A stretch of 64,000 bases of DNA from a virus. The notes beneath the pieces were generated by a model that saw only the letters and a list, made by a program, of their open reading frames with translations, ran no database searches and was not told where the DNA came from. The position numbers and the translations under genes were made by a program. This document shows positions 884 through 18,241 of the stretch, piece after piece (within the stretch, counting starts at the first letter, position 1; each line of letters starts with the position of its first letter). Where the stretch lies: positions 1 through 64,000 of IMG/VR virus record IMGVR_UViG_3300035703_000038; one strand, written 5' to 3'.

Positions 884-893
884 CAAGAATTGC

Positions 894-922
894 TTTACTT
901 TTTATTCTTGTTAGTATATAAT
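894..922 (+). promoter_or_regulatory. Sigma70-like early promoter, start-codon positioned
   Basis: The -35 TTTACT lies at 894-899, followed by a 17-base spacer and -10 TATAAT at 917-922. The ATG of the next gene is at 929, which is where +1 would fall, so the transcript would have essentially no leader. The same arrangement recurs at 3251 and 11275. Confidence 0.75.
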
Positions 923-928
923 GGATGT

Positions 929-1387
929 ATGAATACAATGTTTATCAAAACACCTGAAGATGGTTGCCATTTCATCGATGAAGAAATTGCTGTCATCGCC
1001 AAGCACTATGGTGCCAAGTATATGGGTCCATGGTCAATCCTACGACAGTCTGGTTGGTCTATCGATCCTGTTGATGTTTTCTATCAACCGAATCCTGATG
1101 TGAGCAAAGGGCATTCGCAATACTTTGGAATGTTTCGAACTTTCGAAGGTCAATCGATGATCACTGATGCTGCAAGTGCATTCAGCGAACCGATCACTGG
1201 CTTACTAACTGATGATGGTGAGGTTCTTGTAAGTCGCTATCGGCATGATTATGTCGAGAAAGGACCATACATGATTGATGGCGGTCGCGACTATTTGCGC
1301 ACAAGCGGCAGCAACGCTGATGGTAAGTTGGTCAAGGTGACTGTTGTCGATGGTGAGTTTCAGTTTGAGGTCTATGGTGAAGTTTGA
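929..1387 (+). CDS. Hypothetical phage protein (152 aa)
   Basis: No domain is recognised. The sequence is soluble and mixed alpha/beta in look, with aromatic clusters (MGPWSILRQSGWSIDP, YFGMFRTFEG). The frame stays open upstream to 890, but that stretch is the promoter, so ATG at 929 is chosen; an alternative ATG lies at 938. No Shine-Dalgarno sequence precedes 929, consistent with leaderless translation. Its 3' end overlaps the small ORF at 1374. Confidence 0.75.
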   Translation: MNTMFIKTPEDGCHFIDEEIAVIAKHYGAKYMGPWSILRQSGWSIDPVDVFYQPNPDVSKGHSQYFGMFRTFEGQSMITDAASAFSEPITGLLTDDGEVLVSRYRHDYVEKGPYMIDGGRDYLRTSGSNADGKLVKVTVVDGEFQFEVYGEV

Positions 1388-1505
1388 TATGCATTGGGTC
1401 AAGCAATGGTCATTCGGATCAACAACGCGATTCAATAATGGAAATCCTTATCGTGACTTTCGCATTGGACCAATTATGATTCGATGTTTTTGGAGAAAGC
1501 AATGA
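1374..1505 (+). CDS. Small hypothetical protein (43 aa), overlapping both neighbours
   Basis: This short basic, aromatic-rich ORF (two Trp near KQWSFG and one near the end in CFWRKQ) starts inside the preceding gene at ATG 1374 (GTG 1377 is also possible). It ends at TGA 1503-1505. The stop overlaps the next gene's ATG at 1502 as ATGA, the coupling used throughout this region. Without it there would be an unusual gap of about 115 bases. Function is unknown, and coding status rests on context only. Confidence 0.5.
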   Translation: MVKFDMHWVKQWSFGSTTRFNNGNPYRDFRIGPIMIRCFWRKQ

Positions 1506-1810
1506 ATCGTGTTTGCTATTCGACAAACTTGATGGGACCAATTAACCTTGAGTGGATAAAGCAACACGGTGAAGGTTGGTGCGCTGGTCGCATTGACATT
1601 TACGGTGAGGGATTGTATCCTGATGAAATAGGATTGCCACCCATGAAGTCAGAGGACTGGGGTCGTTTTAGTAATTGGTTGGATACTTTTGAAACTGATT
1701 ATATGTGGACTCTTAGAATGTTGGTTTCTGAATACGAGAAAACAAATCCTAAGATTCAATGGCACCATACACCAGAATGGGAGATGTATAATGATAAAGA
1801 ATCTGAGTAA
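1502..1810 (+). CDS. Conserved phage hypothetical protein (102 aa)
   Basis: The protein starts MNRVCYSTNLMGPINLEW, followed by a GEGWCAGRIDIYG segment. This N-terminus resembles a small conserved family in phages that has no assigned function. The upstream in-frame start at 1484 is rejected in favour of ATG 1502, which gives an ATGA overlap with the 43-aa ORF. Its 3' end overlaps the membrane protein at 1791 in another frame by 20 bases. Confidence 0.75.
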   Translation: MNRVCYSTNLMGPINLEWIKQHGEGWCAGRIDIYGEGLYPDEIGLPPMKSEDWGRFSNWLDTFETDYMWTLRMLVSEYEKTNPKIQWHHTPEWEMYNDKESE

Positions 1811-1946
1811 CACACAGAAGAAAATTTTTGCTGGGATTATTACAATCACATTCCCTATTTGGATGCTTGCCCTTCCATTTGTTATGTTAGTTGCAATGAT
1901 AGCAATTTTGTATGCGGAAATTACTTATGCGCTTGGAGTAAAGTGA
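1791..1946 (+). CDS. Small predicted membrane protein (51 aa)
   Basis: After a short basic N-terminus (MIKNLSNTQKK) the product is almost entirely hydrophobic (about residues 12-46), enough for one long or two short membrane spans. ATG at 1791 is chosen because upstream sequence in this frame lies within the preceding gene. It sits directly before another single-span protein, so the two may act together at the host membrane. The role is unknown and lysis or superinfection functions are only guesses. Confidence 0.6.
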   Translation: MIKNLSNTQKKIFAGIITITFPIWMLALPFVMLVAMIAILYAEITYALGVK

Positions 1947-1947
1947 T

Positions 1948-2130
1948 ATGTATGATGATAAACACTATTATGTAGTTCCAATTATTGTGCTTGCTGTATT
2001 TCTGTTTGTTTTGGGATATCTGCTTGGATTCACTCTTACTGAGAAAAGAATCTATAACAATTGTCTCGAAACCAATGCAACGATGATTCATCAAGATGCA
2101 GTTGCAAAGTGTAGAGAGTTAATAAAATGA
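1948..2130 (+). CDS. Small single-span membrane protein (60 aa)
   Basis: A short polar N-terminus (MYDDKHYY) precedes one strong hydrophobic span (about residues 9-30, VVPIIVLAVFLFVLGYLLGF). A polar C-terminal tail with two Cys follows, so it is probably inner-membrane anchored. It follows the preceding membrane gene with a one-base gap and overlaps the next gene by four bases (ATGA). No family is recognised. Confidence 0.7.
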   Translation: MYDDKHYYVVPIIVLAVFLFVLGYLLGFTLTEKRIYNNCLETNATMIHQDAVAKCRELIK

Positions 2131-2591
2131 GTAGATATAAAGAACATGCTTTAGAAGAATTTCGTGCCGCTGGTTGGACTGACGAAAACGGAAAGTTCCG
2201 CGATGAGTGGCAAGAAGAAATTTGCAATCACATTTTGGATTTGCTTGCTGCGTTTGCCAAAGGAGATCACTCTGGCACAACTGCACCATACACTGTCCGT
2301 TTGTTTGAGAAACTGGCACTGTTTCAACCCATCGCACCGTTGACTGGTGAGGATTGGGAATGGATCGATGTTGCCGAACGTGATGGTGGGCGTGTCTATC
2401 AGAACAAACGCGCAAGCCATGTGTTCAAAGATGATAATGGTGCATATGACATTAACGGAATCATTTTTTACGAATGGCTTACTCGTGAAGATGGTACGCA
2501 ATTCAAGAGTTACTTCACGAGTGAAGGAAGTCGCGTTCCTGTGACTTTCCCATACACTCCGACTTCTGTTTATAGAGAAATGAAATTATGA
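2127..2591 (+). CDS. Hypothetical phage protein (154 aa)
   Basis: The protein is soluble and acidic. It starts MSRYKEHALEEFRAAGW and has a WEWIDVAERDGGRVYQNKR stretch in the middle and a beta-rich C-terminal half. It resembles uncharacterised proteins of T4-like phages, but I cannot name a function. It is coupled to both neighbours by ATGA overlaps (2127-2130 and 2588-2591), so it belongs to the operon read from the promoter at 894. Confidence 0.75.
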   Translation: MSRYKEHALEEFRAAGWTDENGKFRDEWQEEICNHILDLLAAFAKGDHSGTTAPYTVRLFEKLALFQPIAPLTGEDWEWIDVAERDGGRVYQNKRASHVFKDDNGAYDINGIIFYEWLTREDGTQFKSYFTSEGSRVPVTFPYTPTSVYREMKL

Positions 2592-2875
2592 ACAGAGAAA
2601 AGATCTTTCGTAAACTCTATCAAAATCAAGTTGACAGAGAAAAGTGGCTGAACAGTGTTCCATCAGAAATTCAGATGGTTTTCTGGAACACACCGTATAT
2701 TGACTCATGCATTCGTGATCGTAATATGATGGTGGAATATGTTTTCGGAGAGCATCTCGACGCAATCGATTGGTTTCTGTATGACTGGCAACCTGGATAT
2801 GAAGTCGATGGAACACCAATTCGAGACATCGATCATTACATTGAGTTCCTAAAACAGACACAGGGGTTTGAATGA
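2588..2875 (+). CDS. Hypothetical phage protein (95 aa)
   Basis: The protein is soluble and acidic with a basic start (MNREKIFRKLYQNQ) and a Trp/Tyr/Asp-rich second half (DAIDWFLYDWQPGYEVDG). No domain is recognised. It overlaps the preceding gene by four bases and is followed three bases later by the next ATG. Confidence 0.7.
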   Translation: MNREKIFRKLYQNQVDREKWLNSVPSEIQMVFWNTPYIDSCIRDRNMMVEYVFGEHLDAIDWFLYDWQPGYEVDGTPIRDIDHYIEFLKQTQGFE

Positions 2876-2878
2876 AAT

Positions 2879-3247
2879 ATGAAAAGTGAAGAACAAGTGA
2901 GAGAACATATGCAAGCAAAGCGCGAACTGGAATGGTGGGAACATTATCCGCTACACAAGTGGTGGTGTAATGATCTCTGTCCTATCGTTCCTCGATTTCA
3001 TTATCGAAAGGGTGACAAATATAGTTCTAATGCTTACAGTTTGCAATGGCTGCTCCTTCATGTTTGGTCGATGGATCATGTGAGTTTCGGTGTAGATGCT
3101 GAAGTGGGGTTTTCAACTATAAGAGTCGGAATAAGTCTCCCATACTTACGAATCAATATCGGATTCTTGCATGTGTATAGTGGATGGAATTGGAAACTTG
3201 ACCGATTTTTCTCTCGCCGACCTAAAATAGAAATGGAACAAGAATAA
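2879..3247 (+). CDS. Hypothetical phage protein (122 aa), last gene before an early promoter
   Basis: This is a His/Trp-rich protein (WWEHYPLHKWWCNDLCP, LQWLLLHVWSMDHVSFG) with a beta-rich C-terminal part. Phages carry many small proteins of this look with no known role. ATG 2879 follows the previous TGA by three bases. The gene closes the first operon, and the promoter at 3251 starts four bases after its stop. Confidence 0.7.
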   Translation: MKSEEQVREHMQAKRELEWWEHYPLHKWWCNDLCPIVPRFHYRKGDKYSSNAYSLQWLLLHVWSMDHVSFGVDAEVGFSTIRVGISLPYLRINIGFLHVYSGWNWKLDRFFSRRPKIEMEQE

Positions 3248-3250
3248 CCC

Positions 3251-3279
3251 TTTACTTGTAACTCTTGCTAGAGTATAAT
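3251..3279 (+). promoter_or_regulatory. Sigma70-like early promoter, start-codon positioned
   Basis: TTTACT at 3251-3256, a 17-base spacer, and TATAAT at 3274-3279. The element shares the -35, the -10 and the internal CTTG-TAG words with the promoter at 894. The ATG at 3286 falls exactly at the expected +1 and no ribosome-binding site is present. Confidence 0.75.
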
Positions 3280-3285
3280 AAAAGT

Positions 3286-3525
3286 ATGAAAAACGAACAT
3301 GGTCATTGCCCAAATTGCAATGCGAATCTTGATGGTGGTTCTATTTGGGAACACTTCTTCAAGGAAACTGGAGACGAGCGAGAAGCAACAAGAGTTGCCG
3401 ATATGTATGGTGCCACTCGCGAAAAAGGTCAGTGGGGTCGTGCGATTGCATTATATGATCGTGATGAAGACCGAACTGTGGCTTGGAAGTGTCCCGATTG
3501 TGGACACGTATGGGAGAGAACATGA
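3286..3525 (+). CDS. Zinc-ribbon-like protein (79 aa)
   Basis: Two Cys pairs, CPNC near the N-terminus (about residues 8-11) and CPDC near the C-terminus (about residues 71-74), frame a charged middle with a DEREATRVADMYG helix. This is the layout of a small zinc ribbon that could bind nucleic acid or a protein partner. ATG 3286 is chosen over the upstream start at 3265, which would read through the -10 box. The product could be a host RNA polymerase or transcription modulator, but that is inference only. Confidence 0.75.
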   Translation: MKNEHGHCPNCNANLDGGSIWEHFFKETGDEREATRVADMYGATREKGQWGRAIALYDRDEDRTVAWKCPDCGHVWERT

Positions 3526-3752
3526 ATAGGAAAGTGTCTGTTGAACTTGAATGGGACGCTGTAGATAGTATCGCTGTCTTTTCAATGAAGAGTACTCTAG
3601 AGAATCTTGAGATCCGTCTTCAAGAACGAAATGATGATTCTGGTATGGCAGTCTTCGTTGCAGAGAAAGAGTTCGATGTGCTGCTTCTAGAAAAGCACAT
3701 AGAAGCCTTAAATTTACTTTTGAAGTATTATGGGGAGAATGTAAGTGAGTAA
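3522..3752 (+). CDS. Hypothetical phage protein (76 aa)
   Basis: A small acidic protein with an N-terminal beta-strand-like segment (KVSVELEWDAVDSIAVFSM) followed by helices. No family is recognised. ATG 3522 overlaps the stop of the zinc-ribbon gene by four bases, which selects it over the longer frame beginning at 3483. The 3' end overlaps the next gene by eight bases. Confidence 0.7.
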   Translation: MNRKVSVELEWDAVDSIAVFSMKSTLENLEIRLQERNDDSGMAVFVAEKEFDVLLLEKHIEALNLLLKYYGENVSE

Positions 3753-4032
3753 AGCATTTGTGGATAAGGATGGAAAGATCTTTGCAGCTTTCGACAGGTT
3801 TGAGTTTGAAACTCAGATTATGTCTTGCTGGGGTGTAACAACAGACATCAAGGATCTTTCTGAAGAGGTCTTAGAGGGTGACCTAACAAAAGATCAAATC
3901 ACCAATGTTCTTATTGGTATTGAACAGCTATATAATATTCGGTTCGAGAAGTTGTTCCGTCAGTTTGAGCAATTGCTCCGTGAGCATGCCCGAACCCTTG
4001 ATAAGTTACCAGAGGTCGATAAGGTTGATTGA
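3745..4032 (+). CDS. Hypothetical phage protein, GTG start (95 aa)
   Basis: A charged, mostly helical protein (EQLYNIRFEKLFRQFEQLLREHARTLDKL) that may form a coiled coil. It starts with GTG at 3745, eight bases inside the preceding gene; no ATG is better placed. Its own 3' end is overlapped by eight bases by the next gene. No function is recognised. Confidence 0.65.
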   Translation: MSKAFVDKDGKIFAAFDRFEFETQIMSCWGVTTDIKDLSEEVLEGDLTKDQITNVLIGIEQLYNIRFEKLFRQFEQLLREHARTLDKLPEVDKVD

Positions 4033-4654
4033 TATAGATTCAATTGTTTACAATAATACAATGTGTAGCAAGAAGCGAGTAGAAGCGCTTGCTAGAGCTA
4101 TTCATTATGTTGTGGATAACAATATACCTGGTGACTTTGTGGAATGTGGCACATGGAGAGGTGGCCTAGCGGCTTTGATGCTACACAATATTACCATGCA
4201 TTGTTTAGACAAGAAGATCTACATTTATGATACATTCGAAGGAATGCCAGAACCAGGTGAAAATGATTGTGGCACTTCTAAGAGAATGTATGAAGAGAAT
4301 AAAGGCGATTGGTGTAAAGCTGGACTAGATGTTGTACAATCAGTATTAGAAGAGATTGCTCTTACATATAATCACTACTGTAGATTTGTTGTTGGTAAGG
4401 TTGAAGATACTTTAGACACAACACATCCAGGTACAATTGCTCTAGCTAGATTAGACACCGATTGGTATTCTTCTACTAAGAAGGAATTAGAGGTTCTATA
4501 TCCACTGGTGGTCAGTAATGGATTTGTTCTTATTGATGACTATTCAGATTGGAATGGATGTAAGCAGGCTGTGGATGAATACTTCTCTACTATTCACCAA
4601 GCTACATATACTAAGTCAATCGTAGATGGATCACTGGTGATACAAAAGAAATGA
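4025..4654 (+). CDS. TylF/macrocin-O-methyltransferase-like SAM methyltransferase (209 aa)
   Basis: The sequence has the recognisable TylF-family order. An N-terminal helix KRVEALARAIHYVVDNNIPGDFVECGTWRGG is the SAM-binding start, then DTFEGMPEP, then LARLDTDWYSSTKKELEVLYPLV, then VLIDDYSDWNGCKQAVDEYF with the metal/SAM-site acidic residues. The family methylates sugar or small-molecule hydroxyls. The upstream IVYNNTMCSK belongs to the family fold, so TTG at 4025 is preferred over ATG 4061; no ATG exists between. A second methyltransferase follows with an ATGA overlap. Likely targets are phage or host glycans or a nucleotide, which is inference. Confidence 0.8.
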   Translation: MIDIDSIVYNNTMCSKKRVEALARAIHYVVDNNIPGDFVECGTWRGGLAALMLHNITMHCLDKKIYIYDTFEGMPEPGENDCGTSKRMYEENKGDWCKAGLDVVQSVLEEIALTYNHYCRFVVGKVEDTLDTTHPGTIALARLDTDWYSSTKKELEVLYPLVVSNGFVLIDDYSDWNGCKQAVDEYFSTIHQATYTKSIVDGSLVIQKK

Positions 4655-5235
4655 AAACATATTCCATAAAAGAAGGCTACAAGGTTCGTTTGAACAACAT
4701 GTTCTATAACGACACTGGAATGAAAGACGAGTGGCAGAAAGAAGTGTATGTGTATGCTCGCCAGCAGTTTGATATTCACAAGCTAACAAGTGTATGGGAT
4801 ATTGGTACTGGGTCTGGTTTCAAACTACTTAAGTACTTTGATGATGTTAAGACACTTGGCACTGATCTTACACCAACTGTTGATTGGTTGAAGAAGACAT
4901 ACCCAGATAAAGAATGGTCTGACAGCTTTGATGTCTTCCATGGATATGATATGATCATCTGTTCCGATGTCATCGAACACATTCTAGATCCAGATCCTCT
5001 TTTAGATACAATCGAAGCTGCTAACCCTAAATTGATCGTATTCTCTACTCCTGACCGTATGCTCTTTCCAAAAGGCCATGATGGTCCTCCAGATAACATT
5101 TGCCATGTAAGAGAGTGGACGACGTTTGAATTTGGAGATTACATTAGTTCTAGGTTCCAGGTCCTGGACCACTTCATATCTAATGAAAAGCAGGCTACCC
5201 AATGCCTTTTGGCCTGCCTAAAACCGCAATCCTAA
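4651..5235 (+). CDS. Class I SAM-dependent methyltransferase (194 aa)
   Basis: The Rossmann-fold methyltransferase motifs are clear: motif I VWDIGTGSGFKLLKYF (about residues 48-63), an acidic end of strand 2 (LGTDLT), and motif IV-like YDMIICSDVIEHILDPDPLL. The last resembles the UbiE/Coq5-like methyltransferase core. The substrate is unknown. It is coupled by ATGA to the TylF-like gene, suggesting a two-enzyme modification cassette. It is the last gene before the structured intergenic region at 5236-5353. Confidence 0.8.
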   Translation: MKTYSIKEGYKVRLNNMFYNDTGMKDEWQKEVYVYARQQFDIHKLTSVWDIGTGSGFKLLKYFDDVKTLGTDLTPTVDWLKKTYPDKEWSDSFDVFHGYDMIICSDVIEHILDPDPLLDTIEAANPKLIVFSTPDRMLFPKGHDGPPDNICHVREWTTFEFGDYISSRFQVLDHFISNEKQATQCLLACLKPQS

Positions 5236-5243
5236 AAAGTCCT

Positions 5244-5314
5244 GTAGAATCAACAAGTTACGAATCCTTAAAAATCAAGGAGTTACGTGAAATACTGTAA
5301 CCCCTTGATTCTAC
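5244..5314 (+). repeat. Three-copy inverted repeat able to form two exclusive hairpins
   Basis: Element A (5244-5261), element B (5273-5286) and inverted element C (5297-5314) share the GAATCAA...GTTAC word. A can pair with C (GTAGAATCAA and GTTAC arms both complementary), or B can pair with C (13 of 14 bases, loop of 10). Both cannot form at once. No T-run follows, so it is not an ordinary intrinsic terminator. It lies between the methyltransferase genes and the promoter at 5318. Confidence 0.7.
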
Positions 5315-5317
5315 GTG

Positions 5318-5345
5318 TTGCCTTTGCTAACCATTCGCGTATAGT
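5318..5345 (+). promoter_or_regulatory. Probable sigma70-like promoter
   Basis: TTGCCT at 5318-5323, a 16-base spacer, and TATAGT at 5340-5345. ATG 5354 starts nine bases past the -10, so the leader would be absent or only a couple of bases. It is weaker than the 894 and 3251 promoters but follows a hairpin region and precedes a new gene block. Confidence 0.55.
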
Positions 5346-5353
5346 GGACGCAT

Positions 5354-5518
5354 ATGGAAACAACTGCAATTGAACAAGAGGTCTGGAACGAGTACGAACT
5401 CGTCCAGGGTGTTATGGACGCCGAGCAAGAGGAGCAAGAGCTGCTTGCTTGGATCGAGAGCCGCCTTGGTGGCTACGATGATGCCTGTGATGGTATCGAT
5501 CCTAGGGAGTGGAAGTAA
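5354..5518 (+). CDS. Small acidic hypothetical protein (54 aa)
   Basis: The ORF runs ATG 5354 to TAA 5516-5518 and encodes a strongly acidic, helical protein (METTAIEQEVWNEYEL at the start, then DAEQEEQELLAWIESRL). It is the first gene after the promoter, and its stop overlaps the next ATG as TAATG, supporting coding status. Highly acidic early phage peptides sometimes act as DNA mimics or protein inhibitors. That is a general idea and nothing here proves it. Confidence 0.65.
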   Translation: METTAIEQEVWNEYELVQGVMDAEQEEQELLAWIESRLGGYDDACDGIDPREWK

Positions 5519-5742
5519 TGAACATCGATGATCGTCATGGTAGTCCCTATGATCGTGGTCGCGCTGATAGTTACTATCGTCGTGGTCGTAGACCCCATTA
5601 CATGGAAGCTGACATAAACGGCTACGTTACTTTCAACAGTAAGGAGATTACTCAAGAGCATATGACATCTCAACAGATTGCTGAGTATCATTTTGGCTTT
5701 GATGAGAATGAAGCTGACCAGAACTTTAAGGAGTGGGAATGA
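5518..5742 (+). CDS. Conserved small phage protein, DRGxADSYY family (74 aa)
   Basis: The N-terminal motif SPYDRGRADSYYRRGRRPHY is characteristic of a small protein family found in many phages. The C-terminal part (QIAEYHFGFDENEADQNFKEW) matches the family's usual ending of a Y-G-F-x-E-N-E helix. The biochemical role is not known. ATG 5518 is chosen over the in-frame start at 5509 because it forms a TAATG overlap with the preceding gene. Confidence 0.8.
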   Translation: MNIDDRHGSPYDRGRADSYYRRGRRPHYMEADINGYVTFNSKEITQEHMTSQQIAEYHFGFDENEADQNFKEWE

Positions 5743-5743
5743 G

Positions 5744-5980
5744 ATGAAAAACATTAGTTCAGAACTCAATGAGGCTTCTCTTCAACAACTGTTCGATGCT
5801 CTCGAAGCTCGAGGTGGCAAAGACTACACTCTTGGCTACGTCTTTAGCATGATGCATCGTTTCATGAACGACAATCCGAAGCTTCGGAAAGACATCGAAC
5901 ATAGTATCAACAACATTCATAAACTTAACAAGACGAGCCCTTGGCTTGCAAAGGAGATTAAAAATGGGTTTCTTCAGTGA
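5744..5980 (+). CDS. Hypothetical phage protein (78 aa)
   Basis: An all-helical charged protein (NEASLQQLFDALEARGGKDYTLGYVFSMMHRFM). ATG 5744 lies two bases after the preceding stop; the longer upstream frame starting at 5678 overlaps the conserved neighbour and is rejected. Its 3' end overlaps the next gene by 17 bases. No family is recognised. Confidence 0.7.
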   Translation: MKNISSELNEASLQQLFDALEARGGKDYTLGYVFSMMHRFMNDNPKLRKDIEHSINNIHKLNKTSPWLAKEIKNGFLQ

Positions 5981-6182
5981 AATTGATATTGAAATCAACG
6001 ACATGATCGCCGAAGGCGCAACTCGTAGTGAAGTACTCGCAAAGTACTCGTTCCTAACCGAACGTGAACTTGAGGCCTACTTCAACCGAGACTTCGACTA
6101 TAGCCATCAAGATGGTGATGTTGTAAGTTATGATGATCTAGTCAGCGAACCAGAAGACACTTGGATTGAAGAGCATTATTAA
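5964..6182 (+). CDS. Small conserved phage protein (72 aa)
   Basis: The protein starts MGFFSEIDIEINDMIAEGATRSEVLAKY, an amphipathic helix pair seen in small uncharacterised phage proteins. The C-terminus is acidic. A good ribosome-binding site (AAGGAG, about 5951-5956) precedes ATG 5964, which selects it over the start at 5946. No function is known. Confidence 0.7.
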   Translation: MGFFSEIDIEINDMIAEGATRSEVLAKYSFLTERELEAYFNRDFDYSHQDGDVVSYDDLVSEPEDTWIEEHY

Positions 6183-6183
6183 T

Positions 6184-6426
6184 ATGTTAACTCATAGAGA
6201 AGTAAGAGAGATTGTCCGTACAATTTCTGGTACTAAGGATTATGGTTATATGGATAAGAGTAAGACTGATCCAAGTTTGTACAATCTTGCATTCTGTAAA
6301 ACTGGTACGTGGGAACCTGATCTGGTTGATGCTATCAAAGAGGCGTTGACTGCAGCTGGTCATACTGACCAAGTTAAGGTAACTGGTAATGGTCATTACT
6401 TAAGAATACACCGTACTGGAGTTTGA
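6184..6426 (+). CDS. Hypothetical phage protein (80 aa)
   Basis: A small basic protein (MLTHREVREIVRTISGTKDYGY at the start and VKVTGNGHYLRIHRTGV at the end). The alpha/beta layout with a basic C-terminal strand could suit nucleic-acid binding, but no family is recognised. ATG 6184 is used because the upstream frame from 6166 overlaps the preceding gene. The next gene starts one base after the stop. Confidence 0.65.
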   Translation: MLTHREVREIVRTISGTKDYGYMDKSKTDPSLYNLAFCKTGTWEPDLVDAIKEALTAAGHTDQVKVTGNGHYLRIHRTGV

Positions 6427-6427
6427 T

Positions 6428-6844
6428 ATGATCTTTAGAGAAGACATTAACACTCGTAAGATCTATAAGTTTGAACGAGAGTACTTCTGGGGCGAGCCTT
6501 CACTTCCGATGAAGATGCTCCAGGATCTTGCAAACAAGATCTGGGAGTCAGAAGGTAAGGAAGATCCATTGCCTCGTGTTGTCTCTGGCAAAGGAACCAA
6601 GTATAATGGACGGTACTTCTCTTACTTCGATGGCGAGAAGGTTGAGCTTGCTCGGTCTGAGCGTAAGAGAACTGTCTTAATACATGAGATGGTTCATGCG
6701 CTTGGATATGATGAGCATGATGATGGGTTTGCCTGTAAGTACTTCGAACTGCTAGAGCAGTTTGCTGGTTACAGTTACAGAGATCTTCTGTACATTGGAA
6801 TTGAATACAAGTTGGTTGAGGAACCGGAAGCAGATATATGGTAG
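6428..6844 (+). CDS. Putative zinc metallopeptidase, WLM/SprT-like (138 aa)
   Basis: The motif HEMVHALGYDEHDDGF (H86, E87, H90, H97) fits the HExxHxxxxxxH-x3-F pattern of WLM/SprT-type minigluzincins, where the three His bind zinc and Glu is the catalytic base. A FACKYFELLEQF helix follows. Cellular relatives (Wss1, SPRTN) act on DNA-protein crosslinks, and the position directly before DNA ligase makes a DNA-transaction role attractive. That function is inference. Its stop overlaps the ligase ATG by seven bases. Confidence 0.75.
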   Translation: MIFREDINTRKIYKFEREYFWGEPSLPMKMLQDLANKIWESEGKEDPLPRVVSGKGTKYNGRYFSYFDGEKVELARSERKRTVLIHEMVHALGYDEHDDGFACKYFELLEQFAGYSYRDLLYIGIEYKLVEEPEADIW

Positions 6845-8157
6845 ATTCGATTTTCAATCAGTTGGCAGCAACATCTTCTCGTTTGGAGAAGGAGGCTATC
6901 TTGACTGCCAATAAGGATAACGAAGTTCTAAAGCGTACATGCTTCTTGGCTCTTGATCCTTTCATTAACTTCTACATCCGGAAGATTCCAAAGTATAAGA
7001 CCGATGTTGGCCCATATGTGTCACTAGCACAAGCACTTGAAGACCTCTTGCCTCTTTCAACAAGAGCTGTAACAGGCAATGCTGCCATTGATTATCTAAC
7101 CAATGTTCTCAAGAACCTTGAGCCAGAAGATGCTAAGGTTGTTGAGCGAGTGATTGAAAAGGATCTACGCTGTGGTGTATCAGAGGCCACAGTCAATAAG
7201 ATTTGGCCTGGTCTGATTGCTACGTATCCTTGTATGCTTGCATCTGGATATGAGGACAGGCTCGTAAGTAAGATTACATGGCCTGCCAATGTCCAATTGA
7301 AGTTGGATGGTATGAGATTCAATGCTATTGTAAAGAATGGCTCTGTAGAGTTTCGTTCTCGTAATGGTAAGTTGTTGAATCTTCTTGGTCAGCTTGAGCC
7401 AGAGTTCTTGGCCATTGCTGGTAGCGACAATGTCGTGTTTGATGGCGAACTTAATGTCATGGATAATGACACAATGCAGTTCATGCCTCGTCAGATTGGC
7501 AATGGTATTCTCTCCAAGGCTCAGAAAGGAACTTTGACTCTTGGTGATGCTGCTCTCATCCATGCAACAGTTTGGGATTGGATTCCGTATGAGGACTTCC
7601 TAAAAAGCGAATGCTCGATGCCCTATCGTATGCGACTGAATTCACTATTCTCTTCAATGGACAATGCTGCCTACGAGAAGAACGAATTCCGAGTTGGCAA
7701 GGTTCATAAGGTTTGGAACAAGGATGTTAACAACATCGAAGAGGCGCAGGCTATGTTTGAAGAGTTGTTGGGCGAGGGCCAGGAAGGCATCATCCTAAAA
7801 GATTTGATTTCCAAATGGGAAGATAAGAGAGCGAAACACCAGATCAAATTCAAGGGAGAACTGGAATGCGATCTAATGTGCGTCGATTGGGTCGAGGGTA
7901 CTGGTAAGAATGCCGGTCGCTTAGGTGCCCTGGTTCTTGAGTCAGCTTGCGGCAAGATTAAGGTGAACGTAGGCACTGGGTTTACGGACTATGATCGTAA
8001 TAAGATCACTAAGGACGTTGTTGGTAAAGTAATCTCCATTAAGTATAATGGTAGGATTGTTGACCAACGAACTGGTGTTTCGAGTCTCTTTCTTCCTGTG
8101 TTCATTGAGGTTAGGGAAGATAAAGATACAGCGGATGACTCCAAAAACATTAAATAA
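6838..8157 (+). CDS. 30: ATP-dependent DNA ligase, T4 gp30-like (439 aa)
   Basis: The nucleotidyltransferase motif KLDGMR has its lysine at residue 155, close to Lys159 of T4 ligase, and this lysine becomes adenylated. Later motifs follow in order: GELNVMD, EGQEGIILKD (motif IV) and HQIKFK (motif V). An N-terminal helical domain and a C-terminal OB-like domain (GTGKNAGRLGALVLE) complete a size near the 487 residues of T4 ligase. It seals nicks in replication and recombination. ATG 6838 overlaps the metallopeptidase gene. A promoter directly follows. Confidence 0.95.
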   Translation: MVDSIFNQLAATSSRLEKEAILTANKDNEVLKRTCFLALDPFINFYIRKIPKYKTDVGPYVSLAQALEDLLPLSTRAVTGNAAIDYLTNVLKNLEPEDAKVVERVIEKDLRCGVSEATVNKIWPGLIATYPCMLASGYEDRLVSKITWPANVQLKLDGMRFNAIVKNGSVEFRSRNGKLLNLLGQLEPEFLAIAGSDNVVFDGELNVMDNDTMQFMPRQIGNGILSKAQKGTLTLGDAALIHATVWDWIPYEDFLKSECSMPYRMRLNSLFSSMDNAAYEKNEFRVGKVHKVWNKDVNNIEEAQAMFEELLGEGQEGIILKDLISKWEDKRAKHQIKFKGELECDLMCVDWVEGTGKNAGRLGALVLESACGKIKVNVGTGFTDYDRNKITKDVVGKVISIKYNGRIVDQRTGVSSLFLPVFIEVREDKDTADDSKNIK

Positions 8158-8160
8158 CTG

Positions 8161-8189
8161 TTGATGTTTGGATGTGATTCAGCTATAGT
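8161..8189 (+). promoter_or_regulatory. Sigma70-like promoter downstream of ligase
   Basis: TTGATG at 8161-8166, a 17-base spacer, and TATAGT at 8184-8189. Unlike the start-codon-positioned promoters, this one leaves a leader of about 30 bases with a clear TAAGGAG ribosome-binding site at 8211-8217 before ATG 8226. Confidence 0.6.
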
Positions 8190-8225
8190 GATGGCTAAAT
8201 ATTTTATATCTAAGGAGTGATATTA

Positions 8226-8444
8226 ATGGCTGACCAAAAATTAACGCTAGTGTTAAGTGTAGAGGATGTTAACCTCGTACTTAATGCTCTTGCAGAACTA
8301 CCTGCTAAGGTTTCTATGAATTTGATTAACAATGTTTCGGTACAGGCACAGAAGCAGCTCCAGGCTACCCAACAGGCACCTAGTATGGCCGAAGCTTCTA
8401 GAGCTGTAACGAATGATATTCGTGATATTGAGGTTAATAACTAA
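8226..8444 (+). CDS. Hypothetical phage protein (72 aa)
   Basis: A small helical protein (VEDVNLVLNALAELPAKVSMNLINNVSVQAQKQLQ) with a Gln/Ala-rich tail. Short proteins of similar shape are common in T4-like phages and are not characterised. ATG 8226 is chosen over GTG 8217 because the ribosome-binding site at 8211-8217 is correctly spaced for it. It is the first gene after the promoter at 8161. Confidence 0.7.
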   Translation: MADQKLTLVLSVEDVNLVLNALAELPAKVSMNLINNVSVQAQKQLQATQQAPSMAEASRAVTNDIRDIEVNN

Positions 8445-8445
8445 T

Positions 8446-8655
8446 ATGGCTAACAGAAGTGACTTTCAATCCGACTTCCCTCGTTCGTTGAAGCGTATGC
8501 TTGCAATGGAGTCAGCTTATGGTTGGATTGAAAACAACCAACAGCGTGGTGAGCTGAAACGTATCTGGAGAACTGCTCATAAGCACCATCGCGATTACAT
8601 TAATAAGCGTGGGACGATGGCTGTTGGCCAGAATGTAGACGAGACTAGTGAATGA
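8446..8655 (+). CDS. Small basic hypothetical protein (69 aa)
   Basis: A basic, helical protein (SDFQSDFPRSLKRMLAMESAYGWI, then RIWRTAHKHHRDYINKR). The basic face could bind nucleic acid. No family is recognised. ATG 8446 follows the preceding stop by one base, and the frame from 8413 is rejected because it overlaps the preceding gene. It overlaps the next gene by four bases (ATGA). Confidence 0.65.
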   Translation: MANRSDFQSDFPRSLKRMLAMESAYGWIENNQQRGELKRIWRTAHKHHRDYINKRGTMAVGQNVDETSE

Positions 8656-8993
8656 ACACCATCGACTACTTCGGTAAAGAGTTAGTACTCAAACCTATCA
8701 ATAAGGTTCGCGTCCGTGTGATTGACGGAAAGTGGAATGTTGAGTATCGCTCTAAGAAGTGGTTGTTTAACTTTTGGAATGTTGAAGGTCAATACCGTGA
8801 CTTCGTTGATGCCAAAGCTAAGGCAGAGACATTGAAGGCACAAGGTGGATTCTTCACTCTAAAAGATATGGTCATTGAGATGGATGTCAATACTGATGTC
8901 GTGGAAGAACCACAGGCAGAAGACTTTGACACTGGTGTGCAAGCAGAGCCTCCTAAGAGAAGTTGGTTTGCACGAATATTCAAAAGGTCCTAA
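8652..8993 (+). CDS. Hypothetical phage protein (113 aa)
   Basis: The N-terminal half is beta-rich and basic (VRVRVIDGKWNVEYRSKKWLFNFWNVEGQY), followed by a linker of acidic residues and a basic C-terminus (PKRSWFARIFKRS). It could be a small nucleic-acid- or membrane-associated protein, but no family is recognised. The stop lies six bases before the tRNA gene. Confidence 0.7.
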   Translation: MNTIDYFGKELVLKPINKVRVRVIDGKWNVEYRSKKWLFNFWNVEGQYRDFVDAKAKAETLKAQGGFFTLKDMVIEMDVNTDVVEEPQAEDFDTGVQAEPPKRSWFARIFKRS

Positions 8994-8999
8994 CACAAA

Positions 9000-9075
9000 G
9001 GGCCTATAGCATAACGGTTAATGCAGAGGACTCATAATCCTTTGACTGTAGGTTCAAATCCTACTGGGCCCACCA
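9000..9075 (+). tRNA. tRNA with CAU anticodon, probably tRNA-Ile2 (AUA-decoding)
   Basis: A complete 76-base cloverleaf with an encoded CCA end. It has a 7-bp acceptor (GGGCCTA with TGGGCCC, one G-U), a 4-bp D stem (GCAT/ATGC), a 5-bp anticodon stem (GAGGA/TCCTT) with loop CTCATAA, and a T arm GTAGG-TTCAAAT-CCTAC. Anticodon CAU could be Met or lysidine-modified Ile2. The C4-G69 and C5-G68 pairs are the acceptor-stem features known to favour the lysidine synthetase TilS in E. coli, so Ile2 is preferred. AUA codons are common in the late genes here. Confidence 0.9.
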
Positions 9076-9085
9076 ATTTAATATT

Positions 9086-9322
9086 ATGGATTCACGACAA
9101 CAAACAATTCAATACTTAATGCTCGAGGCTAGCGAACTTTCTAAAGTTTGCGCTGAAGCTTTGATGGCTGTCAATAGAAATAAGGCAGACATTAAGGTTG
9201 AACAACAAGTTGGTGTTATCCTTAACGCAATCAAAGAAGCAACTACCCAACTTAACTTTTCAGAAGATAGGTTAATGGTTGCTGTTGAGAAAGAACAAGT
9301 AAGACGGGAGAAGGAATTATGA
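9086..9322 (+). CDS. Hypothetical phage protein (78 aa)
   Basis: A helical, amphipathic protein (QTIQYLMLEASELSKVCAEALMAVNRNKADIKVEQQVGVILNAIKEATTQL) that may be a helical bundle or coiled coil. It starts ten bases after the tRNA. No function is recognised. It overlaps the next gene by four bases (ATGA). Confidence 0.65.
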   Translation: MDSRQQTIQYLMLEASELSKVCAEALMAVNRNKADIKVEQQVGVILNAIKEATTQLNFSEDRLMVAVEKEQVRREKEL

Positions 9323-9630
9323 TCGATGATATTGATCCAAAGACATACTTCAGTTTGTCTATGCGTAGAGATGGTAAGGATGTTAACGTCAACTTCGACG
9401 GTGTCGATGTTAGAGTACCCCAGGTGCTTGAAGAAGTTCTTCATTTTATGAAGGCCTGTGGTTATTGCTTCGATATTGATGATCGTATTGAAGTTGTAAA
9501 TGATTTCAGGTTTGAGGATAGTACACAGAAGCCAGAGCTCGATCTGTCGTGGTTGGATAACTACCCTGATCCTGAAATGACTAACTTTGATCACAATAAT
9601 CCAAACCACATTATTAAGCCAGAGGGTTAA
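9319..9630 (+). CDS. Hypothetical phage protein (103 aa)
   Basis: An acidic alpha/beta protein with a beta segment (DVNVNFDGVDVRV), a helix (LEEVLHFMKACGYCF) and an acidic Pro-rich tail (DNYPDPEMTNFDHNNPNH). No domain is recognised. It is translationally coupled to the preceding gene, and the 29-aa basic peptide follows after four bases. Confidence 0.65.
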   Translation: MIDDIDPKTYFSLSMRRDGKDVNVNFDGVDVRVPQVLEEVLHFMKACGYCFDIDDRIEVVNDFRFEDSTQKPELDLSWLDNYPDPEMTNFDHNNPNHIIKPEG

Positions 9631-9634
9631 TACA

Positions 9635-9724
9635 ATGCCAGCTAAAACAGGTACTAAAGGATTTGGCAAGGGCCGGGCTAAGTTAGGTTCTAAGAAGCGA
9701 AAGGCACGTCGTAAGAAAAGCTAA
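9635..9724 (+). CDS. Tiny, highly basic peptide (29 aa)
   Basis: ATG 9635 to TAA 9722-9724 encodes a 29-residue peptide in which nearly half the residues are Lys or Arg (MPAKTGTKGFGKGRAKLGSK at the start, then another basic run). The stop overlaps the next ATG as TAATG, exactly like verified neighbours, and no other frame fills this gap. Similar basic tails occur in nucleic-acid-binding proteins, so RNA or DNA binding is a reasonable guess. Confidence 0.6.
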   Translation: MPAKTGTKGFGKGRAKLGSKKRKARRKKS

Positions 9725-10488
9725 TGAAAGTTTATATTGGTCCATACACTAATTGGTTCGGCCCATATCAGTTGGCCGAGAAGATCCTTTTTTGGAAGGA
9801 AAGAGGTGACGATAGCGTTCACCAATTGGGTGAATGGTTAGCCTATGGTACAAATAAACCTAAGGATGATCTGAAGCCCAGCACAACTGTGGCTAGCCTT
9901 ATGTCTTCTGTTGAAGAAAGAGAGCAACATGGAACCTGGCTGTATAAGTTGTTATTATGGATTGAATCTAAGAAGAAGCGTGCTGTTAAGGTTAAGATTG
10001 ATAAGTACGATACTTGGTCAATGGACCATACACTATCGTATATCATTCTTCCAATGCTTAAGCAGCTGAAAGAAACAAAGCATGGTGCTCCTAATGTTGA
10101 TGATTGTGATGTACCTGAAAACATTCGCTCCACATCTGCTCCTCCTAAAGAAAATGATTACGACGTGGATGCATTCCATTTTGATCGTTGGGACTATGTT
10201 CTTGATGAAATGATTTGGGCATTTGGTCAAAAGCTCACGGATTGGGAAAGACAATACTATAGTGGCGAGGCTGACTACTACCATCAAGCCTATGATGAGA
10301 ATGACCAGAAAGTTGGTGACCCATACAAGTGGCCTCAGAAGGGCCCTAAGGGTTTCAAGTATAGTCAGCTCATTCCTGGTCCAAACCATACATTCAAAAT
10401 GGATATGGAAGGCTTGAAGGCTCATGATGAGCGTATAAAGAATGGCTTCAAGTTATTTGGTAAGTACTATAACGGTCTTTGGAATTAG
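9724..10488 (+). CDS. Conserved phage protein, MKVYIGPY family (254 aa)
   Basis: The N-terminus MKVYIGPYTNWFGPYQLAEKI marks a family that recurs in marine T4-like phages. The middle region includes KVKIDKYDTWSMDHTLSYIILPMLKQLKETKHGAP, and the C-terminal part holds DRWDYVLDEMIWAFGQ. The protein is Trp/Tyr-rich and soluble. No biochemical function has been established that I know. It follows the basic peptide with a one-base overlap and the next gene starts one base after its stop. Confidence 0.8.
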   Translation: MKVYIGPYTNWFGPYQLAEKILFWKERGDDSVHQLGEWLAYGTNKPKDDLKPSTTVASLMSSVEEREQHGTWLYKLLLWIESKKKRAVKVKIDKYDTWSMDHTLSYIILPMLKQLKETKHGAPNVDDCDVPENIRSTSAPPKENDYDVDAFHFDRWDYVLDEMIWAFGQKLTDWERQYYSGEADYYHQAYDENDQKVGDPYKWPQKGPKGFKYSQLIPGPNHTFKMDMEGLKAHDERIKNGFKLFGKYYNGLWN

Positions 10489-10489
10489 T

Positions 10490-10768
10490 ATGAAGCGTCA
10501 ATGGCGATGTGCGGATAAGAACAATCACTACTATTTCCAAGTTCATGATGGAAAGGTAGTTGGTCAGGTGTACAATCTTGCCCATACTATCATCTGGGGT
10601 GCTAAGATTCCTGTTAGTGCTACAGAAGATAAGATTCTTGGTCAGTATGTTGAGATGGAATTTGCTAAGAGAGCAGTAGAAGACAATTGGGATGAGATAG
10701 ATAGAACAATAGATGCTATCTTCCCTGATCACCAAAAGCAGTTAACCAAGCATACAGATGGAATTTAA
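10490..10768 (+). CDS. Hypothetical phage protein (92 aa)
   Basis: The beta-rich N-terminal half (RWRC-type start MKRQWRCADKNNHYYFQVHDGKVVGQVY) is followed by an acidic helical second half (YVEMEFAKRAVEDNWDEIDRTIDAIF). No family is recognised. ATG 10490 is chosen because the upstream frame from 10442 overlaps the conserved neighbour. It overlaps the oxygenase gene by 11 bases. Confidence 0.7.
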   Translation: MKRQWRCADKNNHYYFQVHDGKVVGQVYNLAHTIIWGAKIPVSATEDKILGQYVEMEFAKRAVEDNWDEIDRTIDAIFPDHQKQLTKHTDGI

Positions 10769-11297
10769 GATCCATAGAAACTTTATTACTGAAGAAGAAA
10801 GGCTGCATCTTAAACATTATGCAGATACCCACTTTCAAGGTGGACGCTTCTGGCCAAACCATGTTTACTCAAAGAGATGGATTCTCGTTCTTAAAAGATC
10901 GCCTCAGACAGACCACAATGGCGCATACTATACAAATGAAATTCACAATTTGTATATGCGGATTCTCTCCACTCTAGATATACCTGATGGCAACATTGAC
11001 CCTCGGCTTGGAATTCTAATTTCCTATATTGAGCCAGGTGGTTTTATTCACAAACATAGAGATATCTACTCAAGTCCTGATTGGAAAGATAAGTTCAACT
11101 ACAGATTCAATATTGTTGTTGACAGAGGATCAGATCCATCGTATAATCCAGTTATTGAGGATATATCATACGACATTGGTAAAGGTGACGCTTGGTCGTT
11201 CAATGCAACTACCGATCTTCACTACACGCTACCGATAGCTGGACCAGAGAACAGAATTGTCTATCAATTTGGATTTGCCATTTCCAAAGAGATGTAG
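10758..11297 (+). CDS. Putative 2OG-Fe(II) oxygenase (179 aa)
   Basis: The double-stranded beta-helix signature is present: an HxD pair in GGFIHKHRD (H100, D102), a distal His in TTDLHYTL (H155), and Arg166 in NRIVYQFGF, which would bind 2-oxoglutarate. The size and the GDAWSFNATTDLH segment fit the aspartyl/prolyl-hydroxylase-like oxygenases common in marine T4-like phages. Substrates of the phage enzymes are mostly unknown, with protein, nucleic acid or small molecules all possible. ATG 10758 lies 11 bases inside the preceding gene. A promoter overlaps its 3' end. Confidence 0.8.
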   Translation: MEFKIHRNFITEEERLHLKHYADTHFQGGRFWPNHVYSKRWILVLKRSPQTDHNGAYYTNEIHNLYMRILSTLDIPDGNIDPRLGILISYIEPGGFIHKHRDIYSSPDWKDKFNYRFNIVVDRGSDPSYNPVIEDISYDIGKGDAWSFNATTDLHYTLPIAGPENRIVYQFGFAISKEM

Positions 11298-11303
11298 TAT
11301 AAT
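11275..11303 (+). promoter_or_regulatory. Sigma70-like promoter, start-codon positioned, inside the oxygenase 3' end
   Basis: TTGCCA at 11275-11280, a 17-base spacer, and TATAAT at 11298-11303. The next ATG at 11310 coincides with the predicted +1. No Shine-Dalgarno sequence is present. This is the third instance of the same geometry in the window. Confidence 0.7.
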
Positions 11304-11309
11304 ACACTC

Positions 11310-11924
11310 ATGAACATTTTTATAGTTGACCGTAACCCTGTTGTAGCAGCTCAGATGCTATGTGACCAGCATGTTGTTAAGATGGTTACAGAGAGTGTTC
11401 AAATGCTATCAACGTGTCATAGGGTGTTAGATGGTAAGATGGAAATTGCGCCGTCCGTATCCGGTAAGAGAAATGTTCCTCGATATCGTTTGGATGATGG
11501 TCGTAATGGTGTCCTCTATCATGCTGTCCATTTCAACCATCCTTGTAACATTTGGATTCGCGATGACATTGTAAACTACGATTGGTTAGTTGCCCACACC
11601 TATGCTCTATGTGAAGAGTATACATTGCGGTACAATAAGAAGCATGCTTGCGAGAGCATACTCGAGTACATGATTGGTGTTGGCGCGCCGAAGAATATTC
11701 CTAACTACAATCCACGTAGAACACAGCAGTTTGTTCAGGCAATGCCAGACGAGTATAAGGATGCTGACCCCGTTAAGGCATATAGAAATTTTTACGTTGG
11801 TAGCAAGTCTAAATTTGCTCGCTGGCGATTTGTAAATCCTCCTAAGTGGTATATCGATGCAACTACAAAGTCCATACGAAGCGTATCAACTTTACGTAGC
11901 AATCAAGAATCACTTTCATACTAG
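11310..11924 (+). CDS. Conserved phage protein, MNIFIVDRNP family (204 aa)
   Basis: The protein has the features of a conserved phage family of unknown function: MNIFIVDRNPVVAAQMLCDQHVVKM at the start, NHPCNIWIRDDIVNYDWL with an ALCEEYTLRYNKKHA helix in the middle, and QAMPDEYKDADPVKAYRNFY then KFARW near the end. Invariant-looking Cys, His, Asp and Trp residues suggest an enzyme. Family members usually end soon after the ARW motif; here the frame runs about 20 residues further, overlapping gene 59 by 68 bases. It is the first gene read from the promoter at 11275. Confidence 0.8.
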   Translation: MNIFIVDRNPVVAAQMLCDQHVVKMVTESVQMLSTCHRVLDGKMEIAPSVSGKRNVPRYRLDDGRNGVLYHAVHFNHPCNIWIRDDIVNYDWLVAHTYALCEEYTLRYNKKHACESILEYMIGVGAPKNIPNYNPRRTQQFVQAMPDEYKDADPVKAYRNFYVGSKSKFARWRFVNPPKWYIDATTKSIRSVSTLRSNQESLSY

Positions 11925-12441
11925 TTACGACTTCTTCAAATATAATGGCAAAGTCAAGGTTCAGTTCACTTCTTTTGAGGTTCGCAAGGACAAGTATTTC
12001 TTTTCGAAGCTTCAGAAACATTCTGATCCTCTTGGGTTGCTTGTATCTAATTTTGTTGATGATCCAAATATTTGGATTGGAGATATTGTTTCCTTCGATA
12101 CTAGCCAAGAAGTCTATCTAAAGTGGAAGAAGAGACAAGATGCAATCTCTTACACTTATCAAGAAGACATAAAGAAGTTAGCCCACGATCCAGATGAATC
12201 GCTAAGAGTGGCTAATGGTCAACATCCTAAACTATTAAAGATGCTGATCGGGACTACTATTTATCCAGAAACGGTGATCTTGCTAAATTCCCAATTGAAC
12301 TTCTTCCCTTATTGGGAAAGTGAGATTATGGATCCGGCAATATGGCCAGTTCAATACAATAAACTACAAAAGTACAAACCATTCATCAAGTACGATAAAG
12401 TAAAAATTAAGAAGTTAACTGTTGACTATTTCGATCTTTAA
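11857..12441 (+). CDS. 59: Helicase loader, T4 gp59-like (194 aa)
   Basis: The N-terminus SPYEAYQLYVAIKNHFHTSYD, then RKDKYFFSKLQKHSDPLGLLVSNFVDDPNIWIGDI, matches T4 gp59 (217 aa) in order and spacing. gp59 binds branched DNA and loads the gp41 helicase onto gp32-coated ssDNA in recombination-dependent replication. Gene 32 follows directly, as in T4. ATG 11857 lies 68 bases inside the preceding ORF; homology begins within the first few residues, so a later start is not acceptable. Confidence 0.9.
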   Translation: MQLQSPYEAYQLYVAIKNHFHTSYDFFKYNGKVKVQFTSFEVRKDKYFFSKLQKHSDPLGLLVSNFVDDPNIWIGDIVSFDTSQEVYLKWKKRQDAISYTYQEDIKKLAHDPDESLRVANGQHPKLLKMLIGTTIYPETVILLNSQLNFFPYWESEIMDPAIWPVQYNKLQKYKPFIKYDKVKIKKLTVDYFDL

Positions 12442-12447
12442 TGGTAT

Positions 12448-12455
12448 TATAAATA
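12448..12455 (+). promoter_or_regulatory. T4-type late promoter upstream of gene 32
   Basis: An exact TATAAATA box, recognised in T4 by the late sigma gp55. The box is 65 bases before the gp32 start, giving a leader of about 55-60 bases. Confidence 0.8.
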
Positions 12456-12519
12456 GTGTATATTATGTTTAATTGTGAACAAACTAATACACTATACATC
12501 TATACGGAGATACAATTAT

Positions 12520-13443
12520 ATGGCAAATGCATTCGATCAACTAAAGCGCAATCGTAAGACCGACTTTGATAAGTTGGCAGATACAGTAAAGAAGATCAAC
12601 GATAAGCAAGGCGGTGGTAACGAGGATAATCGTTTCTGGCAGCCTGGCGTTGACCAAGCAGGGAATGGCTTTGCAGTCATTCGATTCCTTCCTGCTCCTG
12701 CTGGTGAAGACAATCCTTTCGTTCGCGTATTCTCTCACGGCTTCCAAGGTCCTGGTGGTTGGTTCATTGAGAACTGCCCAACGACTCTTGGTGATAAGTG
12801 CCCAGCATGTGAAGAGAACACTGTTCTTTGGAATAGTGGTGTTGATGCAAACAAGAAGATTGTTTCAGCTCGCAAGCGTAAGCTCAACTTCATCTCGAAC
12901 ATCTATGTTGTTCGTGATCCTAATAATCCTTCTAACGAAGGTAAGGTATTCCTCTTCAAGTATGGTAAGAAGATCTATGATAAGATCAACAATGCCATGT
13001 ACCCAGAGTTTGAAGATGAGAAGTCTGTCAACCCATTTGATATGTGGGAAGGTGCTGACTTCAAGTTGAAGATTCGTAAGGTTGAAGGCTACCGCAACTA
13101 CGATAAGTCTGAGTTCGATGCACCAGCTGCATTGCTCGATGATGATGGTAAGTTGGAGAAGGTATGGCAGTCGGAACATTCTCTTGCTCAATTTGTTGAC
13201 AAGAAGGAGTTCAAGAGCTACGATGACTTGAAGGTTCGCTTGGCTAAGTCACTTGGCCAGAGTGCTCCAATGACTCGTGCTACTGAGGAAGAAGAGGATG
13301 AGGTGGCAGCTCCTGCCTATCGTCCTAAGGCTGCAGCACCTAAGGCACAAAAGGAGAGCTGGAACGAGAGTGATGATGTATTCACGCCTTCGGATTCAGA
13401 AGATAACCTTCCAGACTTCTTTAAAAAGTTAGCTGAAGAATAA
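12520..13443 (+). CDS. 32: ssDNA-binding protein, T4 gp32-like (307 aa)
   Basis: The core matches T4 gp32 (301 aa): GNGFAVIRFLPAP, the zinc ligands H73, C86, C94 and C97 (T4 H64, C77, C87, C90, with the same H-C spacing of 13), KVFLFKYGKKIYDKIN, and WEGADFKLKIRKVEGYRNYDKSEFD. The basic N-terminus (KRNRK) would be the cooperativity motif and the C-terminal 60 residues form the usual acidic tail. It coats ssDNA and organises replication proteins. ATG 12520 is chosen over the longer frame from 12475 by homology. An intrinsic terminator follows. Confidence 0.96.
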   Translation: MANAFDQLKRNRKTDFDKLADTVKKINDKQGGGNEDNRFWQPGVDQAGNGFAVIRFLPAPAGEDNPFVRVFSHGFQGPGGWFIENCPTTLGDKCPACEENTVLWNSGVDANKKIVSARKRKLNFISNIYVVRDPNNPSNEGKVFLFKYGKKIYDKINNAMYPEFEDEKSVNPFDMWEGADFKLKIRKVEGYRNYDKSEFDAPAALLDDDGKLEKVWQSEHSLAQFVDKKEFKSYDDLKVRLAKSLGQSAPMTRATEEEEDEVAAPAYRPKAAAPKAQKESWNESDDVFTPSDSEDNLPDFFKKLAEE

Positions 13444-18228: not shown

Positions 18229-18233
18229 ATAGG

Positions 18234-18241
18234 TATTTATA
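18234..18241 (-). promoter_or_regulatory. Minus-strand T4-type late promoter for the gp4-gp29 cluster
   Basis: The plus strand reads TATTTATA, giving TATAAATA on the minus strand. The gp4 ATG begins six bases past the box, so the transcript would start on or next to the start codon. The box overlaps the first base of the gp48 ATG on the plus strand. Confidence 0.8.

Follow-up and report, generated by a model that had tools for sequence, protein, structure and literature searches.

A conserved promoter-to-ATG spacing predicts leaderless mRNAs for the first genes of early operons in a T4-related phage

How is a gene translated when its promoter ends six bases ahead of its start codon and the gap holds no Shine-Dalgarno sequence? 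The question is raised by several sites in the first 64 kb (the window, the whole stretch of DNA analysed) of the 101,244-base virus record IMGVR_UViG_3300035703_000038. Judged by its genes, this record derives from a T4-superfamily myovirus, of which it represents a 101 kb fragment: it has homologues of the T4-type baseplate, head closure, gp32 and gp55 proteins, as well as TATAAATA late promoters. The window encodes gp4, baseplate proteins, gp32, a helicase loader and a DNA ligase, while the gp55-like late sigma gene lies at 92916-93275 of the record. The nearest match of gp6 is from Stenotrophomonas phage DLP6 (48% identity), followed by T4-like phages of Sinorhizobium, Rhizobium, Pelagibacter and Caulobacter. 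Gene calls based on codon usage performed poorly for the early genes and were left out of the conclusion.

Four sites on the plus strand carry the arrangement or a close variant. Promoter 1 (894-928) comprises TTTACT (894-899), 17 bp and TATAAT (917-922), with 6 bp separating the latter from the ATG at 929, the predicted leaderless start of the first gene of early block 1 (929-1387; 152 amino acids; PHROG 12504, unknown function). Promoter 2 (3251-3285) repeats this layout, with TTTACT at 3251-3256, 17 bp, TATAAT at 3274-3279 and 6 bp before the ATG at 3286. Early block 2 opens here with a gene (3286-3525) encoding a zinc-ribbon-like protein of 79 amino acids with two CxxC pairs and weak, below-cut-off Pfam matches; further along the block (4025-5235) lie adjacent methyltransferase genes, one TylF-like (PF05711) and one matching PF13489. 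Promoter 3 (5318-5353) is looser, with TTGCCT (5318-5323), 16 bp, TATAGT (5340-5345) and 8 bp before the ATG at 5354, the start of the first gene of early block 3 (5354-5518; 54 amino acids; no family). The equivalent spacing is 7 bp in three relatives (L134, L136, L137), and a leader of 0-2 nt is predicted. Promoter 4 (11275-11309) has TTGCCA at 11275-11280 within the 3' end of the upstream gene, 17 bp, TATAAT at 11298-11303, which is touched by that gene's TAG stop (11295-11297), and 6 bp before the ATG at 11310. The first gene of early block 4 (11310-11924; 204 amino acids) belongs to the pyrimidine-dimer DNA glycosylase family (PF03013, PHROG 624). The box-to-ATG gaps of these sites contain no Shine-Dalgarno sequence. 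We infer the early assignment from the sigma70-type boxes and the gene content. Not every such box adjoins an ATG, as a sigma70-like site at 8161 lies about 36 nt ahead of a gene with a strong Shine-Dalgarno sequence. The gene preceding 11310 also contains, within its coding sequence, a perfect-consensus TTGACA-17-TATAAT promoter (11119-11147, plus strand), and both boxes are conserved in relatives L012 and L014-L017. This promoter may transcribe 11310 as well, giving a leader of about 155 nt, or it may simply reflect conservation of the encoded protein.

The coordinates given by the sequence-only reading for TATAAT, six bases and ATG at 894, 3251 and 11275 all proved exact on recheck, and its two looser sites, the 5318 promoter and the late promoter of gp4, are as it described them. 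So are the overlapping genes behind the first genes: ATGA at 1502-1505 within the block starting at 929, ATGA at 3522-3525 between the 3286 gene and its downstream neighbour, and TAATG at 5516-5520 between the 5354 gene and the next. The start codons themselves have independent support at 929, 11310 and gp4, those of 3286 and 5354 being predicted. The 11310 family alignment begins from residue 1, and gp4 likewise aligns from its Met. For 929 the support comes from orthologue comparison, which disfavours the alternative start at 938 that had been considered: orthologues L089 and L091, whose protein N-terminus is one codon shorter, keep TATAAT-N6-ATG to the first ATG and not to the second.

AT-rich upstream DNA will yield TATAAT-like strings by chance, in which case the promoters would not be real or not be used at these places. 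Counts from a single genome do little against this explanation. The bare 15-mer pattern occurs four times in the window against 1.56 expected, a number reached in 4 of 100 shuffles, and the fourth match (56031, minus strand) is antisense within a large gene. A search of the full 101,244-base record for TATAAT-N6-ATG, proposed as a check in the sequence-only reading, did reveal an excess (six matches against one for the reversed pattern). Such bare-pattern counts are nevertheless weak alone, and the window is barely above chance. T4 itself has eight bare hits, and none of the six examined is an annotated gene start. When a -35 box and a gene start are also required, the three sites at spacing 6 form the only cluster in the window, no other distance between 0 and 40 having more than two. 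A generic scan for promoters across the first 19.5 kb, with 77 sites against 50.6 expected in shuffles, was too permissive and was dropped.

Pooled DNA gives a much sharper signal. The pool comprised 1.41 Mb of own and homology-fetched phage DNA, deduplicated. Its loci were collected by similarity to the genes of this study, and a start-like filter served as a proxy for true starts; so defined, 25 ATGs lie six bases and 13 lie seven bases after TATAAT, whereas spacings of 8-40 average 3.2 each (Poisson 2e-17 for the 6-7 peak). The peak persists when the query gene families are taken out (28 against 3.15 per spacing, 2e-10). A -35 match of at least 4/6 accompanies 26 of the 38 sites at spacings 6-7, compared with 35 of 106 comparison sites. 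A Shine-Dalgarno 4-mer is found at only 2/38 of them, against 46/80 at spacings 15-40 (p=1.6e-8). Pyrimidines at -1, expected ahead of a transcription start, are commoner at spacings 6-7 (29/38 versus 55/106). The excess is confined to ATG, the other codons at spacings 6 and 7 respectively being GTG (0 and 1), TTG (1 and 4) and CTG (0 and 2). Searching IMG/VR for TTGACA-N17-TATAAT-N6-ATG pointed the same way: 60 of the 106 matches listed were gene-start-like, 51 of these 60 with a pyrimidine at -1. At the one control spacing used, N11, 16 of the 64 matches listed were gene-start-like, with A at -1 in 10 of the 16. The sharp peak, the -35 enrichment, the Shine-Dalgarno depletion and the restriction to ATG, together with retention of box-N6-ATG despite unrelated flanks (below), make chance a very improbable explanation.

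Comparison of orthologues indicates that promoter and spacing travel together. The N6 spacing of promoter 1 is retained in six relatives (L089, L090, L091, L095, L098, L100) and that of promoter 2 in four (L108, L112, L114, L116). Eighty relatives of gene 11310 were fetched. Its promoter is retained in five close relatives, and five further orthologues (L018, L019, L020, L040, L055) have unrelated upstream DNA, yet still show a -35 and a TATAAT-type box-N6-ATG, the box of L040 being TAAAAT, six bases from the ATG. Relatives L009-L011 and L013 have no promoter, and their ATG overlaps the upstream stop codon. Relatives of 929, 3286 and 5354 behave similarly. Orthologues of 3286 inside operons have either a Shine-Dalgarno sequence (L105, L117) or, in L110, an upstream stop codon that overlaps, and across orthologues the presence of the promoter and the absence of a Shine-Dalgarno sequence co-occur. 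The same block, ending CTATAGTATAATAGAAGT-ATG or near-identical, stands ahead of an orthologue of 929 (L100) and orthologues of 3286 (L112, L116). Promoter and spacing therefore appear to move to whichever gene leads. By this comparison promoter and ATG together act as a portable cassette, which the first gene in a block receives and operon-internal orthologues do without.

Such behaviour suggests a reason for the design that is compatible with leaderless initiation. A promoter-plus-ATG of about 40 bp could be inserted before any gene with no leader to accommodate, and would then need no regulatory purpose. The occurrence of one cassette ahead of different genes fits this idea, as does the 11275 promoter, for which a 12-bp intergenic gap and the 3' end of the preceding coding sequence provide enough room. 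Promoters 1 and 2, however, sit in gaps of 38-45 bp, where a short leader would cost little, and we consider the odds that compactness and mobility are the reason to be about even. Whatever the reason, this spacing is found again in relatives whose flanking DNA differs and in unrelated phages, so it is probably a real way to start translation without a ribosome-binding site.

The promoters might be real and the first genes nevertheless be translated mainly by read-through or re-initiation from upstream, with the leaderless mRNA minor. The upstream genes lie only 12-45 bp away, all on one strand, and the conserved consensus promoter within the gene upstream of 11310 could supply a longer transcript. 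Read-through mRNAs, however, would lack a Shine-Dalgarno sequence at these ATGs, whereas operon-internal orthologues have one or a stop overlap (L105, L117, L009). We regard read-through or re-initiation as the main route as improbable. Taken as a whole, the observed anatomy, statistics, conservation and swapping are very probably best explained by leaderless mRNAs for the first genes of early operons.

Late genes are organised differently. Wherever a TATAAATA box has an ORF start within 60 nt, the distance to the ATG is 15-46 nt, and most of these leaders contain a recognisable Shine-Dalgarno sequence. The exception is gp4, a head-closure protein of 147 amino acids (17785-18228, minus strand), the sole late promoter adjoining a start codon (18229-18241, minus strand): TATAAATA at 18241-18234 is followed by 5 nt and the ATG at 18228. 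In the longer ORF the first residue covered by the gp4 family match is residue 14, which corresponds to this ATG. About one helical turn separates the T4 late box from the transcription start downstream of it (PMC2988020), and the 5' end of gp4 mRNA is therefore predicted at or beside the ATG. The box-N5-ATG is retained in L010, L017, L019, L020 and L022. The tail-tube-cap gene diverges from gp4 and its start codon shares bases with this box, so the conservation could reflect a constraint of space or coding. The two divergent start codons are 12 bp apart (18226-18243), an arrangement also retained in relatives. The gp4 sequence additionally matches the Tn7 TnsA-like endonuclease N-terminal domain (PF08722, 2e-22). 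The leaderless design is not universal, since ssb (gp32; 12520-13443) is preceded by a conserved leader, about 65 nt long, that includes a Shine-Dalgarno sequence. The upstream region at 12422-12519 comprises overlapping sigma70-like (TTGACT-17-TATTAT) and late (TATAAATA) boxes and this leader, which contains a possible hairpin, an arrangement reminiscent of T4 gp32 autoregulation.

The order of early and late classes bears on a further suggestion of the sequence-only reading, that the leaderless early mRNAs are a dedicated adaptation exploiting ribosomes altered by infection. Leaderless and leadered mRNAs of E. coli do differ in their response to changes in ribosomes or initiation factors (PMC9031893). 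Early genes, however, would meet unmodified host ribosomes. The late genes, made after any ribosome change, keep conventional Shine-Dalgarno leaders, whereas a shift towards leaderless initiation during infection would predict the reverse. The phage encodes a tRNA with a CAT anticodon (9000-9075, plus strand), which is probably not an initiator because position 1-72 is paired. No match to a T4-type RegB was found in this incomplete record, in a search whose control was uninformative. Adaptation to altered ribosomes is thus a very improbable explanation. Leaderless initiation at first genes, the other part of that reading, is well supported by the spacing peak, the -35 boxes, the absence of Shine-Dalgarno sequences, the restriction to ATG, retention in orthologues and swapping.

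We therefore propose the following for the preferred reading, leaderless mRNAs at early operon heads. Host RNA polymerase with the housekeeping sigma factor would bind the -35 and -10 boxes at the head of several early blocks, where the -10 box ends 6 (sometimes 7-8) bases ahead of the ATG. At the usual initiation distance from a -10 box, the A of AUG would be the first base of the mRNA. Ribosomes and initiator tRNA would bind this 5'-terminal AUG directly, with no Shine-Dalgarno sequence, to translate the first gene. For the overlapping genes downstream, translation would draw both on ribosomes that have read the first gene and on the Shine-Dalgarno sequences of those downstream genes. Late genes, transcribed from TATAAATA promoters, would have ordinary Shine-Dalgarno leaders, gp4 excepted.

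Several known systems resemble this proposal in part. The lambda cI gene is a single maintenance gene of a prophage, whereas the present design is found repeatedly in a T4-related phage, where it heads predicted lytic early blocks and is exchanged between genes. The lytic Thermus phages phiYS40 and P23-45 use leaderless transcripts in their middle or late classes, whereas here the early class is predicted to be leaderless and the late class leadered. That translation can begin at a 5'-terminal AUG without a leader is well established (PMC9031893; for Caulobacter, PMC4117421). Known leaderless mRNAs include some from phages. The window sites share with the cI type a predicted 5'-terminal AUG, an adjoining sigma70 promoter, no Shine-Dalgarno sequence and the use of ATG only (PMC9031893). 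In Deinococcus-Thermus, too, leaderless genes are driven by a -10 box that precedes the ORF by a few bases, at a required spacing. That cellular system is genome-wide, involves about a third of genes and often has no -35 (PMC12340547), whereas here a minority of phage genes is involved, at operon heads only, and the -35 is enriched. As in T4, the boxes are sigma70-type for early and TATAAATA for late promoters, with a gp55-like late sigma gene; unlike at T4-type early promoters, there is no Shine-Dalgarno leader of about 20-30 nt at the window sites. Leaderless genes are known from alphaproteobacteria, namely Caulobacter (PMC4117421) and Sinorhizobium (171 genes, cited in PMC4117421). The hosts of the related phages Cr30 and phiM12, which may not be the host of this phage, thus translate leaderless mRNAs well; in the Cr30 and phiM12 genomes themselves the design was not clearly seen. 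We found no paper in the open-access literature on leaderless early genes or cassette behaviour in T4-related phages, and the split between leaderless early and led late genes and the portable cassette look new for these phages.

That a temporal split of initiation, with portable sigma70-promoter-AUG cassettes making early operons leaderless and late genes being Shine-Dalgarno-led, extends across a large and mostly uncultured share of T4-related and other aquatic phages is a tentative and rather doubtful generalisation. If true, host state (initiator tRNA, IF3, S1) could be used to tune early expression independently of late expression. The pattern itself offers a natural test of competition between leaderless and leadered mRNAs during infection, since within a single phage the two temporal classes would use different modes of initiation. 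It further provides a sequence-only route to early promoters and operon heads in uncultured phages.

Among complete genomes, phage C48C1 (GenBank) has two classes of -10-to-ATG distance, 5-7 and 22-37. The gap between them resembles the leader gap of Lactococcus cremoris, in which leaders of 4-14 nt were not seen experimentally (PMC10986495). The short class includes DNA polymerase, a DNA methyltransferase and primase, the annotated starts of DNA polymerase and primase lying exactly 7 and 6 bases after TATAAT, respectively. The same scan of T4, as a negative control, returned the long mode only (mainly about 20-31 nt from -10 to gene start), apart from one site inside gene 59. The annotated methyltransferase start of C48C1 (L473), at 33480, is directly against the -10 box and so probably wrong; the ATG at 33486, two codons on, has leaderless spacing. 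Gene finders that reward Shine-Dalgarno sequences can misplace or miss starts in this manner. In the named phages examined, homologues of 11310 either have a leader or are internal. Pattern hits in Pseudomonas putida phage Illi-2, Cr30 and Melnitz-3 were rejected, as they match no annotated gene starts. Illi-2 (L475, L476; 11065 and 48389) has near-identical TATAATnGCACCATG sites 47 and 61 nt upstream of annotated starts, and these are possibly 5'-terminal AUGs on leadered mRNAs.
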